Source of the DNA: Micromonospora sp. WMMD882
GTDB lineage: Bacteria > Actinomycetota > Actinomycetes > Mycobacteriales > Micromonosporaceae
Assembly (NCBI RefSeq): GCF_027497255.1
Contig: NZ_CP114903.1
Coordinates: 4,340,001-4,404,000 of the forward strand
Direction: 5' to 3'
Length of the DNA stretch: 64,000 nucleotides
Position 1 is the first letter of the stretch. Each line of letters starts with the position of its first letter. Under the pieces are notes generated by a model. That model was not told where the DNA came from, did not search any database, and saw only the letters and a program-made list of their open reading frames with translations. Below, piece after piece: positions 15,754 to 21,362 of this stretch. A program made the translations under genes and the position numbers.

Positions 15754-17331
15754 TCAGTACCCCCGCCACTCGGCGCGGGCGTATTCGAGCACCTTCGGTC
15801 GCAGCAGCGTCGAGGCGGGCACGTCGACCCGGCGCCGGTCGGCCGGGAAGGCGCCGGCCGCGGCGAGCGTGTCGGCGTCCAGGAACCGCAGCGGCGGCCC
15901 GTCGGCCGGCAGCTCCAGGACGGGCGGTCGCGCCCCGGGCGCGGCGAGCACGAAACCCCAGTCGCCGAAGGAGGGCACGTCCACGTGGTAGGGCCGGGTG
16001 GCGAACCCGGCCGCCCGGATCGACGCCTCGATCGACCAGTACGACCGGGGCGCGAAGTACGGCGAGCCGGACTGCACCACCAGCCGGCCGCCGTCGGCCA
16101 GCACCGCCCGCACCAGGGAGTAGAACTCGACGGTGTAGAGCTTCGCGGTGGCCGTCTCGTCGGGGTCGGGCAGGTCCGCCAGCACCACGTCGAAACGTTC
16201 CGCGGCGGTGCGCAGCCAACCGAACGCGTCGGCGTGCACCACCCGGACCCGGGGGTCGGCGAACGCGTCGCCGTTGAGCCGGCGCAGTTGCGGCTCCTCG
16301 CGGGCCAGCGCCACCACCGCCGGGTCCAGGTCCACCACGGTGACCCGGCGTACGTCCGGGTAGCGCAGCAGCTCCCGTACGGCCAGCCCGTCACCGGCGC
16401 CGAGGACCAGCGCCTCGCCGCGCGGGCCGGTCAGCGCCGGATGCACCAGCGCCTCGTGGTAGCGGTACTCGTCGACCGAGCTGAACTGGAGATCGCCGTT
16501 GAGGAAGAGGCGCAGGTCGCTGGCCTGCCGGCTCACCTCGGACACCGAGCGGGTCAGCACGATCTCCTGGTAGCGGCTGCGTTCGGCGTGCACGACCGGG
16601 TCCCGGTAGAGCTGCTGGCGGGCGGTCACCTCGAAGTCCCGGGCGGTGACCCAGGCGTACGAGAGGCTGAGCGCGACCAGCACGGACCCGGCGGTGAGGG
16701 TCACCCACGCCCGGCGGCTCAGCTCCCGCCGGAACACCGTGACCACCAGCGCCAGCCCGGCCACGGCGTTCACCGCGCCGACCACCAGCGCCCCCTTGAG
16801 CTGCCCGAAGACCGGGATCAGCAGGAACGGGAAGGCCAGCCCGCCGAGCAGCGCGCCCACGTAGTCGGCGGCGAACAGGTCGGCGACCGCGCTGCCGGCG
16901 GACTGCTCGCGGATGCGTTGCAGCAGCACCATCAGCAGCGGGATCTCCGCGCCGATCAGCAGGCCGAGCACGAACGCGGTGCCGACCAGCGCCGGGCCGT
17001 ACAGGTCCAGCCAGGCGAACGCGGCGTAGAGCCCCAGCACCGACAGGCCGCCGAGCAGCGCCAGGGTCAGCTCGATCAGCGCGAACGCGGCGGCGGCCCG
17101 GGGCTGGAACGGCTTGGCGGCGAGCGCGCCGACGCCCATCGCGAAGACCATTACGCCGAGCACGATGGACGCCTGGCCGACCGTGTCGCCGATCAGGTAG
17201 CTGCCCAGCGCCACCAGCGCCAGCTCGTACACCAGACCGCAGGCCGCGCAGACGAAGACCGCGAGCAGGACCGCCGCCCGGGCCGCCCGCCACCGTGGCC
17301 GGTACGACGGTGGGTCCGCCGGGCTGGTCAC
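15754..17331 (-). CDS. Membrane-anchored spermidine synthase-like aminopropyltransferase
   Basis: The 525-residue product has about seven N-terminal membrane segments (residues 15-215) and a soluble SpeE-like domain after residue 245. The latter shows YQEIVLTRS, LFLNGDLQFSSVDEYRYHEALVHPAL, the nucleotide loop VLGAGDGLAVREL and VVDLDPAVVALA, then VVLADLPDPDETATAKLYTVEFY. These correspond to the spermidine synthase methylthioadenosine-binding and catalytic regions. The enzyme would transfer an aminopropyl (or similar) group at the membrane; no AdoMet decarboxylase gene is in the window. The GTG start overlaps the previous stop as GTGA, so it is translationally coupled as the last gene of a six-gene operon. 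Confidence 0.85.
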   Translation of the reverse strand: MTSPADPPSYRPRWRAARAAVLLAVFVCAACGLVYELALVALGSYLIGDTVGQASIVLGVMVFAMGVGALAAKPFQPRAAAAFALIELTLALLGGLSVLGLYAAFAWLDLYGPALVGTAFVLGLLIGAEIPLLMVLLQRIREQSAGSAVADLFAADYVGALLGGLAFPFLLIPVFGQLKGALVVGAVNAVAGLALVVTVFRRELSRRAWVTLTAGSVLVALSLSYAWVTARDFEVTARQQLYRDPVVHAERSRYQEIVLTRSVSEVSRQASDLRLFLNGDLQFSSVDEYRYHEALVHPALTGPRGEALVLGAGDGLAVRELLRYPDVRRVTVVDLDPAVVALAREEPQLRRLNGDAFADPRVRVVHADAFGWLRTAAERFDVVLADLPDPDETATAKLYTVEFYSLVRAVLADGGRLVVQSGSPYFAPRSYWSIEASIRAAGFATRPYHVDVPSFGDWGFVLAAPGARPPVLELPADGPPLRFLDADTLAAAGAFPADRRRVDVPASTLLRPKVLEYARAEWRGY

Positions 17332-18056
17332 CGTCGGGCCCGCCGTTGCCGGTGGCGCTGGACCAGGCCGACGGTGACCAGCAGCGCGGTGACCAGCAGC
17401 AGTCCGGCGGCGGTGAGCGTGGGCGCCCAGCGGTCACGCCAGAAGTCGCTGCCCGCGTCCGGCAGCGTGGCCGGGGCGGCGGCGGGGACCGCGGCCGGGG
17501 TGGCGGCCGGCGCGACCAGCTCCGCCTCGACGGCGAGCAGCGGCAACGTGACGGCGGCCCGGGTGACCGCCCAGCCGGGGTCTTCGACGAAGACGTCCGG
17601 GGTGAGCCCGAAGCGGGGCAGGGCGGCGTCGATCTGCCAGAGGGCCGACTGCGGAATGTCGTCCGAGCCGGTCACCCGGACCAGCGCGGAGTCCTCGCTC
17701 TCGCTGCTCTCCGACGTGTAACGGACGTCGGCGACCACCTGGATCCAGCGCGGGCAGCCCGGGTCGCCCTCCACCGGCGCCCCGTCGCCGAGGTTCGAGC
17801 CGACGCTGACCTCGTCGTAGCCGAGGTCCTGGAGTTTCCAGCCGTAGCAGAGGCCCTGCGCGGTGGCGTTGCGCTGGAGCACGGCCACGGTGTCGGCACG
17901 TTCCGTGGTGGCCGGTGGCGGCACCTCGGTGCCCCCGTCGTCGTTGACGATCCCGGCGGCCACGCAGACGCCGACGACCGCGACCGTGACCACGCCCACC
18001 CAGATCCCGGCCCGGTTCGAGGACTTCTGGGCCGCGGCGGACCTGGTGGCGGCCAT
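17328..18056 (-). CDS. Unknown two-TM membrane protein in the DUF350/spermidine-synthase operon
   Basis: The 242-residue product has a membrane segment near residues 17-37, an extracytoplasmic middle with two cysteines (GLCYGW and PGCPRW), an Ala/Pro hinge and a second membrane segment near 212-232 ending in a basic RHRQRRARR tail. I do not recognise a family. The ATG overlaps the DUF350 stop as TGATG and the stop overlaps the next start as GTGA, so it is coupled on both sides. Position alone suggests it is a membrane partner of the aminopropyltransferase-like enzyme. Confidence 0.75.
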   Translation of the reverse strand: MAATRSAAAQKSSNRAGIWVGVVTVAVVGVCVAAGIVNDDGGTEVPPPATTERADTVAVLQRNATAQGLCYGWKLQDLGYDEVSVGSNLGDGAPVEGDPGCPRWIQVVADVRYTSESSESEDSALVRVTGSDDIPQSALWQIDAALPRFGLTPDVFVEDPGWAVTRAAVTLPLLAVEAELVAPAATPAAVPAAAPATLPDAGSDFWRDRWAPTLTAAGLLLVTALLVTVGLVQRHRQRRARR

Positions 18057-18478
18057 CAGATGATCGCGGCGGCGATGATCGCGCCGGTGGCGAGGTGGAT
18101 GACGGCGCTCACCCAGACCGCCGGGTGCGGCTCCGGGTCGACCAGGATCTCCCCCAGCTTGCCGGGCGTCGCCACGTCCAGCACCAGGAACGCCGACGCC
18201 ATGATGACCAGGCCGAGCACGCCGTACGCGGCGGCGCCGGTGATGCCCAGCGCGAAGTCGTCCTCGCTGGCGACGATCGCGGCGACCACGATGACGCCGA
18301 CGCCGGCCAGGTTGGAGGCGAGCAGCAGCGCCGCGTTGCGGTTGCGGTGGGTCCAGATCAGCTCGTTGAGCCGGCCGGGGGTGGCCACGTCGACGAGGAC
18401 GTAGCCGACGGCCATCAACAGCACGCCGACCACCCCGTAGGCGAGGGTGACCAGCAGATCGGTGACGAGGGTCTGCAC
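18056..18478 (-). CDS. DUF350 family membrane protein
   Basis: The 140-residue product has four membrane helices arranged as two similar halves. Each half contains VLVDVATPGRLNELI or VLDVATPGKLGEIL, the signature of DUF350 (YjfL-like) proteins. Function is unknown. The GTG at 18478 has GGAG eight bases upstream. The stop overlaps the next start by one base (TGATG). In several bacteria DUF350 genes neighbour polyamine- or glutathionylspermidine-type enzymes, which fits the last gene of this operon. Confidence 0.88.
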   Translation of the reverse strand: MQTLVTDLLVTLAYGVVGVLLMAVGYVLVDVATPGRLNELIWTHRNRNAALLLASNLAGVGVIVVAAIVASEDDFALGITGAAAYGVLGLVIMASAFLVLDVATPGKLGEILVDPEPHPAVWVSAVIHLATGAIIAAAII

Positions 18479-18513
18479 GGTGGGACTCCGGAGGACGAAG
18501 GGGTTCGGTCGGA

Positions 18514-18939
18514 TTACTTGCCGCTGCCGGGGCCGCCGCCTCGGACGGTGCTGCCACGCCCCCAACCCCAGGCGTTACCCACCGTGGAGTGGTAGCGCGG
18601 GTAGGCGGTGGAGAGGCGTTCGAGCAGGATCAGCGACCCGGCCGCCACCGGCAGGATGACCACCGAGTCGTCGTCGTACCGCAGGTAGACGCCGCTGCCG
18701 TCGACGTACTGGTCGGCCGGTTTCCAGGCGTCGGTGACCTCGTCCGCCACCTGGCTCGGCGACTTCGACGAGGTGTAGGCGATCGCGTCCCGACCGATGT
18801 CCCGGCCGTTGGCCCGGGTGTACCGGTCCTCGACGTAGCCGCGCGGGGAGAAGTTGCCGTAGCCGATGGCGAACGCGGCGACCAGCGCGCCGATCACGGC
18901 GAACGCCGCGCCCACCACGAACCATCTGCGGTACGTCAC
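18514..18939 (-). CDS. DUF4247 family protein
   Basis: The 141-residue product has an N-terminal membrane anchor (about residues 7-27) then an extracytoplasmic domain with SPRGYVEDRYTRA, YLRYDDDSVVILP and a Gly-rich C-terminus. This matches DUF4247, a family of unknown function. The GTG start overlaps the DUF2617 stop as GTGA. It is the third gene of the operon running from 20194 down to 15754. Confidence 0.82.
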   Translation of the reverse strand: MTYRRWFVVGAAFAVIGALVAAFAIGYGNFSPRGYVEDRYTRANGRDIGRDAIAYTSSKSPSQVADEVTDAWKPADQYVDGSGVYLRYDDDSVVILPVAAGSLILLERLSTAYPRYHSTVGNAWGWGRGSTVRGGGPGSGK

Positions 18940-19556
18940 CGTGTCACCACCGTCTCGGTCAGGACCAGCTCGTTGGTCTGCGGGTACGCGTGCCAGGTGC
19001 GCCACCGCGTCACCCCGCCCGTCGGGTCGGGGGTGACCGCGAGGGCGGTCACCGCGTCCGGGTCACCGGGAAACACCCCCACCAGCGCGTACGGGTCGTC
19101 GGCCAGCTCGGCCCGGAGGCGGGCGACCCGCCGGCCCAGGCCCCCCGGCTCGGGCCGGAGCACGCTCGCGCTGAACGTGTAGCCGCTCGCCGGCTCGTGC
19201 ACGGTCGCCGGCAACTCCGGACGCCGCCCGGGCAGGCAGGCCACCGTCTCGGTCAGCACCACCCCGACCCCGCCGGGGTCACCGCCCCACGGCCGGCCGT
19301 CTCCGCCGGACGGGGCGTCTCCGCCGGACGGGGCGTCTCCGCCGGACGGGGCGTCTCCGCCGGACGGGGCGTCTCCGCCGGACGGGGCGTGCAGGAGCAC
19401 CTGGTGGGACGCGCCGAGCAGCCGCAGCCGCAGCCGGTGGCCGTCGGGCAGCGCCAGGTCGAGCACGTGCAGGGCGGGCAGCTCGGGGCCGCCCAGCGCC
19501 AGGCTCAGGTCCCCGGCGCTGGTGTCGACGTACGGGGCTTCCAGGGTGACCAGCAC
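18936..19556 (-). CDS. DUF2617 family protein with in-frame hexapeptide repeats
   Basis: The 206-residue product matches DUF2617 at both ends: an opening LVTLEAPYVDTSAGDLSLAL and a closing WRTWHAYPQTNELVLTETVV. Between them, residues 56-85 consist of five copies of the hexapeptide SGGDAP, encoded by an 18-bp tandem repeat, inserted in a loop. DUF2617 is unknown in function. The stop overlaps the DUF4247 start, and the GTG start lies two bases after the DUF4178 stop, so it is the second gene of the operon. Repeat number may vary between strains. Confidence 0.83.
   Translation of the reverse strand: MLVTLEAPYVDTSAGDLSLALGGPELPALHVLDLALPDGHRLRLRLLGASHQVLLHAPSGGDAPSGGDAPSGGDAPSGGDAPSGGDGRPWGGDPGGVGVVLTETVACLPGRRPELPATVHEPASGYTFSASVLRPEPGGLGRRVARLRAELADDPYALVGVFPGDPDAVTALAVTPDPTGGVTRWRTWHAYPQTNELVLTETVVTR
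19302..19391. repeat. 18-bp minisatellite (five copies) in the DUF2617 gene
   Basis: TCCGCCGGACGGGGCGTC repeats five times head to tail with a single change in the last copy. The unit is a multiple of three and codes for a hexapeptide on the minus strand. Confidence 0.92.
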
Positions 19557-19558
19557 GC

Positions 19559-20194
19559 TCAGCCCACCTGCTCCGGGCCGGACTGCGGGTAGATCATCAC
19601 CTCGGGGCGGTGCACCTGCTCGCCCCGGGCCACCTCCCAGCCGGCGTCCCCGTACCGCTCGAAGGAGAGCCGGGCCCCGCCGGAGGCCCGGTAGTCGTGG
19701 TAGCGGAGGCCACCGGTGGGGTTCAGGCCGGTGGTGCCGGTGGCGGTCCAGCGGGCCTGCCCCGACTCGTGGCTGCGGTAGCGACGCCCGTCGAAGTCGA
19801 CGGTGGCCGGTCCCGGGGCCACCGTCGCTCCCGGCTCGTCCGTCCAGAGCACCAGCTCCAGCTCCGGGTCCTCCTCGACAGAGAGCCAGCGGCGAACGCC
19901 GTCGGCCGTCTCCAGCAGGTGCTCACGCCAGCTCCACTCCCCCTCGGTGAGGAGGAGCGAGCCGCGTACCGCGTACGACACCTGGCGGATCTCGATGATG
20001 TCACCGGGTCGCAGCCGGCGCGGGTCGCCGCGCAGGGCGTCGGCGTCGTGGTCCCGCAGCGGGTCGACGCCGGTGGCGGTGGCCGGACGAGTGGCCCGGC
20101 GGGACCGCCGCAACGCGATCACCGCGACGACCACTCCAGCCACCGCGACCAGGCAACCCGTGGTCGCCATCAGGTACGCCAACGTGCCGTTCAC
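19559..20194 (-). CDS. DUF4178 family protein
   Basis: The 211-residue product has one N-terminal membrane segment (about 5-27) and a soluble domain with RPGDIIEIRQVSYAVRG, EGEWSWREHLLE and RWLSVEEDPELELVLW, which is diagnostic for DUF4178. The family is unknown in function but is repeatedly found next to DUF350 and polyamine-type enzymes. The GTG at 20194 has GGGGAGG about ten bases upstream; the longer frame to 20344 lacks a site. It is the first gene of the operon, so the promoter should lie in 20195-20294. Confidence 0.84.
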   Translation of the reverse strand: MNGTLAYLMATTGCLVAVAGVVVAVIALRRSRRATRPATATGVDPLRDHDADALRGDPRRLRPGDIIEIRQVSYAVRGSLLLTEGEWSWREHLLETADGVRRWLSVEEDPELELVLWTDEPGATVAPGPATVDFDGRRYRSHESGQARWTATGTTGLNPTGGLRYHDYRASGGARLSFERYGDAGWEVARGEQVHRPEVMIYPQSGPEQVG

Positions 20195-20294: not shown

Positions 20295-21362
20295 TCAGTT
20301 ACCCGAGGTCGTCGACCCGGACGGCGGATCGACCGGCGGGCCAACGTCCGTCGACGTCGTGCCGGGCGCGGCGGACTCCGGGCCGGGCGCGGCGGACTCC
20401 GGGCCGGGCGCGGCGGACTCCGGGCCGGGCGCGGCGGACTCCGGGCCGGGCGCGGCGGACTCCGGGCCGGGCGCGGCGGACTCAGGATCGGACCCGGTGG
20501 GCTCCGGGCCGGGCGCGGCGGACTGCGGGCCGGGCGGTGGTGGCAGGTGCCGGCCGGGGTCGGGGCAGACCAGGTATCCCGGCGGCGGATAGCCGGACGG
20601 TGGCGGGTACCCGGGCGGAGGCGTCGGATAGCCGGACGGCGGCGGGTAGCCGGGCAGGAGCGGCTGCCCGGGCGGCGGGGCGTACCAGGGCAGGCCGACC
20701 GGCGGGGCCGGGTAGTGCCAGGGCGGCTGCGCCGGGCCGGCGGGCTGCTCGGCGCGCGGCCGGAAGTACCTGTCGGCGGGCGGCAGGGTCAACAGCAGCA
20801 CCACCGCCACGGTGAGCGCGACGGCCAGCAGGATCCCGCCGAGCGAGCCGAGGCTGAGGAACTGGTAGGTGGGGTCGTCGGCGCCGTACAGGGTCTCCGC
20901 GAACTCGGACTCCTGCCAGACCAGGTCGCCGTTGTCGTCCTCGGTCCAGTCGCCGTCCGCGCCGATGCCGAACGGGACGGTCAGCGCGCCGACACATCCC
21001 CCGACGACGCAGAACAGCAGGTGCAGGCCCGCGCCCACGTAGACCAGGGTCCGGGCGGCGAGACCGCCCCGGCGGGTCGGGCGGGCGGTGGCGGCGAACC
21101 AGACCGCCAGAAACAGCGCGGGCAGCCCGGTGGTCACCGCCAGCAGCACGTTGCCGAACCGCTCACCGGAGACCTCCGCCGGGTCGGCGTCGGAGACGAT
21201 CTCGGCGGCCCGGGTGATCTGGCCGTCGAACTGCGCCGCCGAGGCCACGGCCAGACCGGCCACGGCGAGCAGCAGGCCGACCGTGGCGAGCTGCAACCAG
21301 AACGCGACGGTGACGGTGGTCGGCCGGGCCGGACGCGCCGGCTCATCGGCGGTGGAGGTCAT
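20295..21362 (-). CDS. Membrane protein with PGYP and PGPESAA repeat tail
   Basis: The 355-residue product (ATG at 21362; 21383 is an alternative) has four membrane segments in its first 190 residues, with an acidic extracytoplasmic loop (WTEDDNGDLVWQ). From residue 200 it is Pro/Gly/Tyr-rich (PPPSGYPPPGY) and ends in repeats of PGPESAA encoded by a 21-bp array. Its layout mirrors the protein at 14814; the two flank the DUF4178 operon, which suggests related roles or an old duplication. No enzymatic motif. Confidence 0.7.
   Translation of the reverse strand: MTSTADEPARPARPTTVTVAFWLQLATVGLLLAVAGLAVASAAQFDGQITRAAEIVSDADPAEVSGERFGNVLLAVTTGLPALFLAVWFAATARPTRRGGLAARTLVYVGAGLHLLFCVVGGCVGALTVPFGIGADGDWTEDDNGDLVWQESEFAETLYGADDPTYQFLSLGSLGGILLAVALTVAVVLLLTLPPADRYFRPRAEQPAGPAQPPWHYPAPPVGLPWYAPPPGQPLLPGYPPPSGYPTPPPGYPPPSGYPPPGYLVCPDPGRHLPPPPGPQSAAPGPEPTGSDPESAAPGPESAAPGPESAAPGPESAAPGPESAAPGPESAAPGTTSTDVGPPVDPPSGSTTSGN
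20361..20486. repeat. 21-bp minisatellite (six copies) in a membrane-protein gene
   Basis: Six head-to-tail units of GCCGGGCGCGGCGGACTCC plus two bases, with two more diverged units up to about 20528. The unit codes for seven residues of the C-terminal tail on the minus strand. Confidence 0.9.

Follow-up and report, generated by a model that had tools for sequence, protein, structure and literature searches.

The stretch of DNA analyzed here, referred to as the window, comprises 64,000 nucleotides of Micromonospora sp. WMMD882 (contig NZ_CP114903.1, positions 4,340,001 to 4,404,000), the genome of which is a single contig of 6.37 Mb. Searches for open reading frames (ORFs) and protein families placed six consecutive genes in it, named A to F, all on the minus strand (Table 1). 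The six-gene set is a known operon type, and the main finding is that its DUF2617 member, gene B, is probably an unrecognized S-adenosylmethionine (AdoMet) decarboxylase. The membership and families given in the original prediction were indeed recovered by Pfam in the same order, namely DUF4178, DUF2617, DUF4247, DUF350, no family, and Spermine_synth; gene E had no match in either Pfam or NCBIfam. A hydropathy scan agreed that all products except DUF2617 have membrane segments, and the count of hydropathy peaks put about seven of them ahead of the SpeE domain of F, in keeping with the predicted seven-helix lead. The intergenic distances were +2 (A/B), -4 (B/C, GTGA), +35 (C/D), -1 (D/E, TGATG) and -4 (E/F, GTGA) bases; since six genes have five junctions, the earlier count of five coupled junctions out of six is corrected to four out of five.

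Table 1. Genes of the operon and predicted functional codons of gene B, in window coordinates.
Feature	Position	Strand	Basis
Gene A (211 aa): DUF4178 protein with a single membrane segment at the N-terminus	19559..20194	-	PF13785 6e-36; hydropathy
Gene B (206 aa): soluble DUF2617 protein, predicted to be a proenzyme of the AdoMet decarboxylase kind	18936..19556	-	PF10936 1.5e-47; AlphaFold models and VIA-align; exchange with PF02675
Gene C (141 aa): DUF4247 protein with a membrane segment at the N-terminus	18514..18939	-	PF14042 3.8e-19; GTGA overlap with B
Gene D (140 aa): multi-pass membrane protein of the DUF350/YjfL family	18056..18478	-	PF03994 1.5e-24; 35-base gap after C
Gene E, no family, 242 aa, membrane segments at N- and C-termini	17328..18056	-	TGATG overlap with D; relatives in Micromonosporaceae and f96 loci
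Gene F, about 7 membrane helices fused to SpeE-type aminopropyltransferase domain, 525 aa	15754..17331	-	NF002956 685 bits; PF01564 (Spermine_synth) 9.4e-31; donor residues; GTGA overlap with E
Ser50 codon (LGASH); serine predicted to form the pyruvoyl group	19407..19409	-	LGASH in 38/38 rows recovered with the Pfam model
Cys107 codon (ETVAC); may correspond to the catalytic Cys of AdoMet decarboxylase	19236..19238	-	Cys in 117/118; register by eye only
Thr170 codon (AxTA); predicted to correspond to human Ser229 and Thermotoga maritima Ser55	19047..19049	-	Thr in 118/118; hhalign register
His189 codon (WRTWHxYP); predicted to correspond to human His243	18990..18992	-	His in 118/118; hhalign register of the C half

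Gene F scored well over the cut-off of the curated aminopropyltransferase family NF002956 (685 against 472 bits). Its donor residues Gln255, Tyr291 and Asp314, as well as the catalytic Asp386, were each present in at least 97% of 41 rows of fused proteins, so that the enzyme domain retains the donor-binding residues on which the original prediction had been staked. At Asp314 the window's protein reads GAGDG, corresponding to the GGG(D/E)G donor motif of aminopropyltransferases (PMC11107197). Enzymes of the SpeE type draw their aminopropyl group from decarboxylated AdoMet, the product of AdoMet decarboxylase (PMC10407285). An ordinary polyamine is nevertheless an unlikely product of gene F, because bacterial membrane fusions of this kind have been described as uninvolved in spermidine or spermine synthesis (PMC12803844, citing Li et al. 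2019).

The source of the donor was then sought at the genome level. A profile search of the source genome returned no match to the AdoMet decarboxylase family PF02675. The eukaryotic-type family PF01536 was not found in any of 178 genomes, a result that is uninformative since its control gave no signal anywhere. Three overlapping genome samples were surveyed, at the level of phylum (149 genomes), class (178) and order (273), with E-value limits at the order level of 1e-60 for SpeE and 1e-6 for DUF2617. In the phylum sample, fused SpeE exceeded the cut-off in eight genomes, seven of which had DUF2617 (one of them, G023, along with PF02675), while the eighth, G050, had PF02675 instead. Among 37 fused-SpeE genomes of the class sample, 34 carried DUF2617, two of these with PF02675 as well; the three without it (G050, G244, G216) all had PF02675. 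The order sample contained 84 such genomes: 67 with DUF2617, including a single one with a PF02675 match, and 17 without, in 16 of which PF02675 was found (Fisher test, 4.5e-15). When this sample was collapsed to genera, the contrast was 1/16 versus 6/6 (9.4e-5). Since both genomes and genera are related by descent, these Fisher values are not probabilities of separate events; it is also to be noted that genome G398 entered the first test only, and that G321, whose contig ends just past D, entered both. Overall, 112 distinct genomes had fused SpeE, and PF02675 was present in 17 of the 18 without DUF2617 as opposed to 3 of the 94 with it (the totals 112, 94, 91 and 18 were summed by hand over the overlapping samples). 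The only genome with neither, G398, is an 82%-complete assembly in which the contig ends just upstream of SpeE.

Judged by their sequences, the three genomes with both families are poor counter-examples to the exclusion, as the PF02675 proteins of G023 and G249 have ASH in place of ESH and no usual Cys, and the match in G328 has no motif and contains a stop. The G023 and G249 proteins (loci L152 and L153) are possibly substrate-shifted SpeD homologues. For 13 of the 17 genomes that have an AdoMet decarboxylase and no DUF2617, the motifs of the enzyme were inspected, the rest being assigned by score. One genome without DUF2617, G244, has a 408-codon open frame (L150, 6140-7366) that appears to fuse an AdoMet decarboxylase to a SpeE-like domain behind it. 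As for the control genomes, Corynebacterium glutamicum was over the cut-off for DUF2617 and fused SpeE and not for PF02675; Haloferax volcanii had a weak DUF2617 match (not at E 1e-6), SpeE below the cut-off, and no PF02675.

Of the 18 loci without gene B, 16 retain A, C, D and F with B gone from between A and C, and 10 of the 16 also have E. In the remaining two the contig stops within the region, just past D in G321 and just past F in G398. The AdoMet decarboxylase of these genomes is located away from the operon, and in 7 of 11 contexts it adjoins a soluble SpeE; by the models used, no soluble SpeE was found near it in G050, G535, G555, G321 and G216. On a tree of 67 F proteins, the absence of DUF2617 amounted to four changes, and on removal of G321 (66 rows) to three, all three forced by well-supported branches, with G216 on a long branch. 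These trees included 12 of the 80 named loci described below, and left out G398 and G265, in which SpeE lies in two frames. Sequence comparison thus suggests about three separate changes, each with an AdoMet decarboxylase in the genome. Within the window's own genus, the order sample held 21 genomes with both DUF2617 and fused SpeE and 18 without fused SpeE; among the latter, only G521 retains part of DUF2617, at a decayed locus (L275) consisting of A plus a truncated B that overlaps a remnant of F.

Conservation of the neighborhood was assessed in a set of named loci, comprising the best 80 among 568 relatives that were retrieved with DUF2617 and an LGASH pattern. DUF2617 and fused SpeE were both present in all 80, and all six genes, in the same order as in the window, in 22; the arrangement is therefore not due to chance. 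In another 52, from Streptomyces, Kitasatospora and their kin by title, these two were the only members of the six. Thus, the loss of neighbors that would speak against the original prediction was found in part. One coupled complex of all six proteins was too strong a claim, and an obligatory six-member complex was rejected on account of the two-gene loci. DUF2617 and F are the constant core of the set, and DUF2617 is the most constant partner of the SpeE enzyme. Among the best 80 of 568, the named DUF2617 proteins nearest to gene B were from Micromonospora, at no more than 64% identity over the best segment. Searches for DUF2617 found no match in plasmids and no relative in viral contigs.

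Several features of DUF2617, the conserved part of which spans about 165 residues, link it to AdoMet decarboxylase. The best structural match of the DUF2617 models was the eukaryotic, class 2 enzyme (human 1jl0 and 1msv; potato 1mhm). On VIA-align superposition of the AlphaFold models, the residue that follows the Ser50 equivalent aligned with the first aligned residue of the human chain (69, with the Streptomyces model only) and of the potato chain (74). The serine of LGASH, invariant in 38/38 rows, is therefore predicted to stand at the pyruvoyl position, in register with Ser68 of the human and Ser73 of the potato enzyme. Cys107 may match the catalytic Cys of AdoMet decarboxylase. A histidine and a threonine that may serve in processing were also invariant, and in register in the hhalign alignment; their human equivalents, Ser229 and His243, are needed for processing (PMC3975893). 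With few sequences, hhalign matched the whole chain and the C half only weakly (E 0.02-0.05). In a deeper comparison, of 118 DUF2617 rows against 31 AdoMet decarboxylase rows, the C half showed a signal, which also carried that of the whole chain (1 of 150 shuffles). Gene B additionally contains a low-complexity loop insert of five 18-base units (window 19299-19388; APSGGD in the protein), which is disordered in its model (predicted local distance difference test below 50); G232, of the same genus, has a different repeat at this place, and most other relatives are shorter.

In comparison with class 2 AdoMet decarboxylase, DUF2617 is alike in being one chain of two halves with the predicted pyruvoyl serine in the N half, but has only about 165 conserved residues as against more than 300, and no detectable profile match. 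With the class 1b enzyme (PF02675), its C half aligns at GVT...IHTWPE by hhalign; the Ser and His motifs lie in separate halves of the chain in DUF2617, and five residues apart in class 1b.

Several observations do not favor a decarboxylase. No signal was obtained for the N half in the deeper hhalign comparison. At E ≤10, 24 DUF2617 members had no profile match to PF02675 or PF01536, and the family is for this reason not filed under either, but claimed only to work alike; the DUF2617 profile also returned nothing from PDB sequences at E ≤10. The Glu that precedes the cleaved serine (ESH) is replaced by Ala in 118/118 rows, where the human enzyme has Glu67; 3 of 31 PF02675 rows likewise have Gln or Ala here. 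The T. maritima enzyme has Glu62 at this position (PMC3975893). G500 (L274) has an intact DUF2617 alone, the rest of the operon being gone, which argues against strict coupling.

Weighing these, we consider it probable that DUF2617 is a strongly divergent single-chain AdoMet decarboxylase that makes the donor for F, which would aminopropylate a membrane-associated acceptor with the other genes as accessories; this assessment was kept when omission of G321 lowered the tree count by one, the remaining three changes being well supported. The protein would be built as a stripped-down class 2 enzyme, in which the N half holds the serine that turns into the pyruvoyl cofactor and the C half contributes the histidine and threonine that aid self-cleavage. 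Gene B would cleave itself at Ala49-Ser50, gain the pyruvoyl group, and act as a cytosolic decarboxylase of AdoMet; F, held in the membrane, would then use its C-terminal domain to transfer the aminopropyl group to a membrane-associated acceptor, probably not putrescine, with an envelope or lipid component favored. DUF4178, DUF4247, DUF350 and gene E may act as accessory membrane partners, as suggested by their loss from loci that keep B and F. In a more specific form, on which we are less firm although still inclined to it, DUF2617 is a third, unrecognized class of AdoMet decarboxylase of about 165 residues, supplying donor only to a membrane aminopropyltransferase whose substrate is a lipid or another envelope component, and swapped in actinomycetes for the canonical SpeD where that is present.

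Alternatively, DUF2617 may have the AdoMet-decarboxylase fold and another job, either making the acceptor as a pyruvoyl decarboxylase that acts on a different amino acid, or being a dead regulatory paralogue, with the canonical decarboxylase making it dispensable indirectly. SpeD homologues with a shifted substrate, namely ornithine and arginine decarboxylases, are indeed widespread, Actinomycetota included (PMC10407285), and the proximity of AdoMet decarboxylase to soluble SpeE in 7 of 11 contexts means that a polyamine product could matter; nonetheless, DUF2617 is also gone from the five genomes with no soluble SpeE near that enzyme, and the fused SpeE retains its donor residues and needs a donor, which leaves this possibility unlikely. 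It is quite improbable that DUF2617 has a PsbP/Mog1/DcrB-like fold and assists the membrane enzyme as its chaperone or binding protein, its exclusion with AdoMet decarboxylase being lineage history. That fused SpeE uses AdoMet itself (methyl or 3-amino-3-carboxypropyl transfer), with no decarboxylase needed, would fit the absence of PF02675 from the genome and the weak methyltransferase-family scores of F, but can be given very little credence, since aminopropyltransferases were by far its best families and the AdoMet decarboxylase in 16 of 17 genomes that lost DUF2617 would be left unexplained.

Operons with this content have been described before, and the gene set as such is not new. The SpeE/DUF350/DUF4178 operons linked to the phage shock protein (PSP) system share the 7TM-SpeE fusion, DUF350, DUF4178, DUF4247 and DUF2617; these families, including a variant with DUF4247 and DUF2617, have been tied to polyamine chemistry and membrane stress, and aminopropylation of other substrates to alter membranes has been suggested for them (PMC11237479). 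Unlike those operons, the six genes of the window include no PspA/CesT pair. The accessions of the earlier operon are presumably those of the Mycobacterium tuberculosis cluster Rv2597-Rv2601. Li et al. reportedly described in 2019 (Biochem J 476:2579) gene sets of an AdoMet decarboxylase with an MFS-SpdSyn fusion, the donor enzyme being of recognizable class 1b or class 2. These sets resemble the DUF2617 operon in joining a donor-making enzyme to membrane-fused SpeE and DUF350, and differ in that DUF2617 replaces the recognizable decarboxylase. The passages of PMC11237479 concerned mention neither a role as decarboxylase nor a missing donor nor an exclusion, and in the parts of the literature naming DUF2617 that were covered (preprints and most subscription papers lay outside the search), AdoMet decarboxylase was not given as its function. 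The broad idea of the original prediction, that an aminopropyl-type group is made or attached at the membrane, accordingly fits both the retained donor residues and the published proposal, although its polyamine-like product is doubtful in the ordinary sense, and two points were missed, namely the lack of a PF02675 match in the genome and the probable donor-making step in DUF2617, which had been treated there as the soluble exception.

Outside the operon, the next gene upstream has AAPGPES-coding repeats near its C-terminal end (window 20360-20490), and the two proteins that flank the operon look like proline-rich membrane proteins, with no Pfam family over the cut-off. A second DUF350 gene occurs in the same genome (C1:74688-75095; L154 6989-7414), directly behind a gene whose product by eye resembles glutamine synthetase, and ahead of one for a large NTPase-like protein.

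DUF2617 is carried by 94 of the 112 fused-SpeE genomes sampled. PF02675 was not found in 91 of the 94, which thus have a 'spermidine synthase' without a recognized donor source, and was motif-deficient in the other three; DUF2617 as the donor maker would close this gap in many related bacteria. If true, a family of unknown function would gain a reaction, the operon would become a dedicated aminopropylation system, and a minimal form in two halves would be added to the pyruvoyl decarboxylases, with bearing on the origin of the eukaryotic enzyme.
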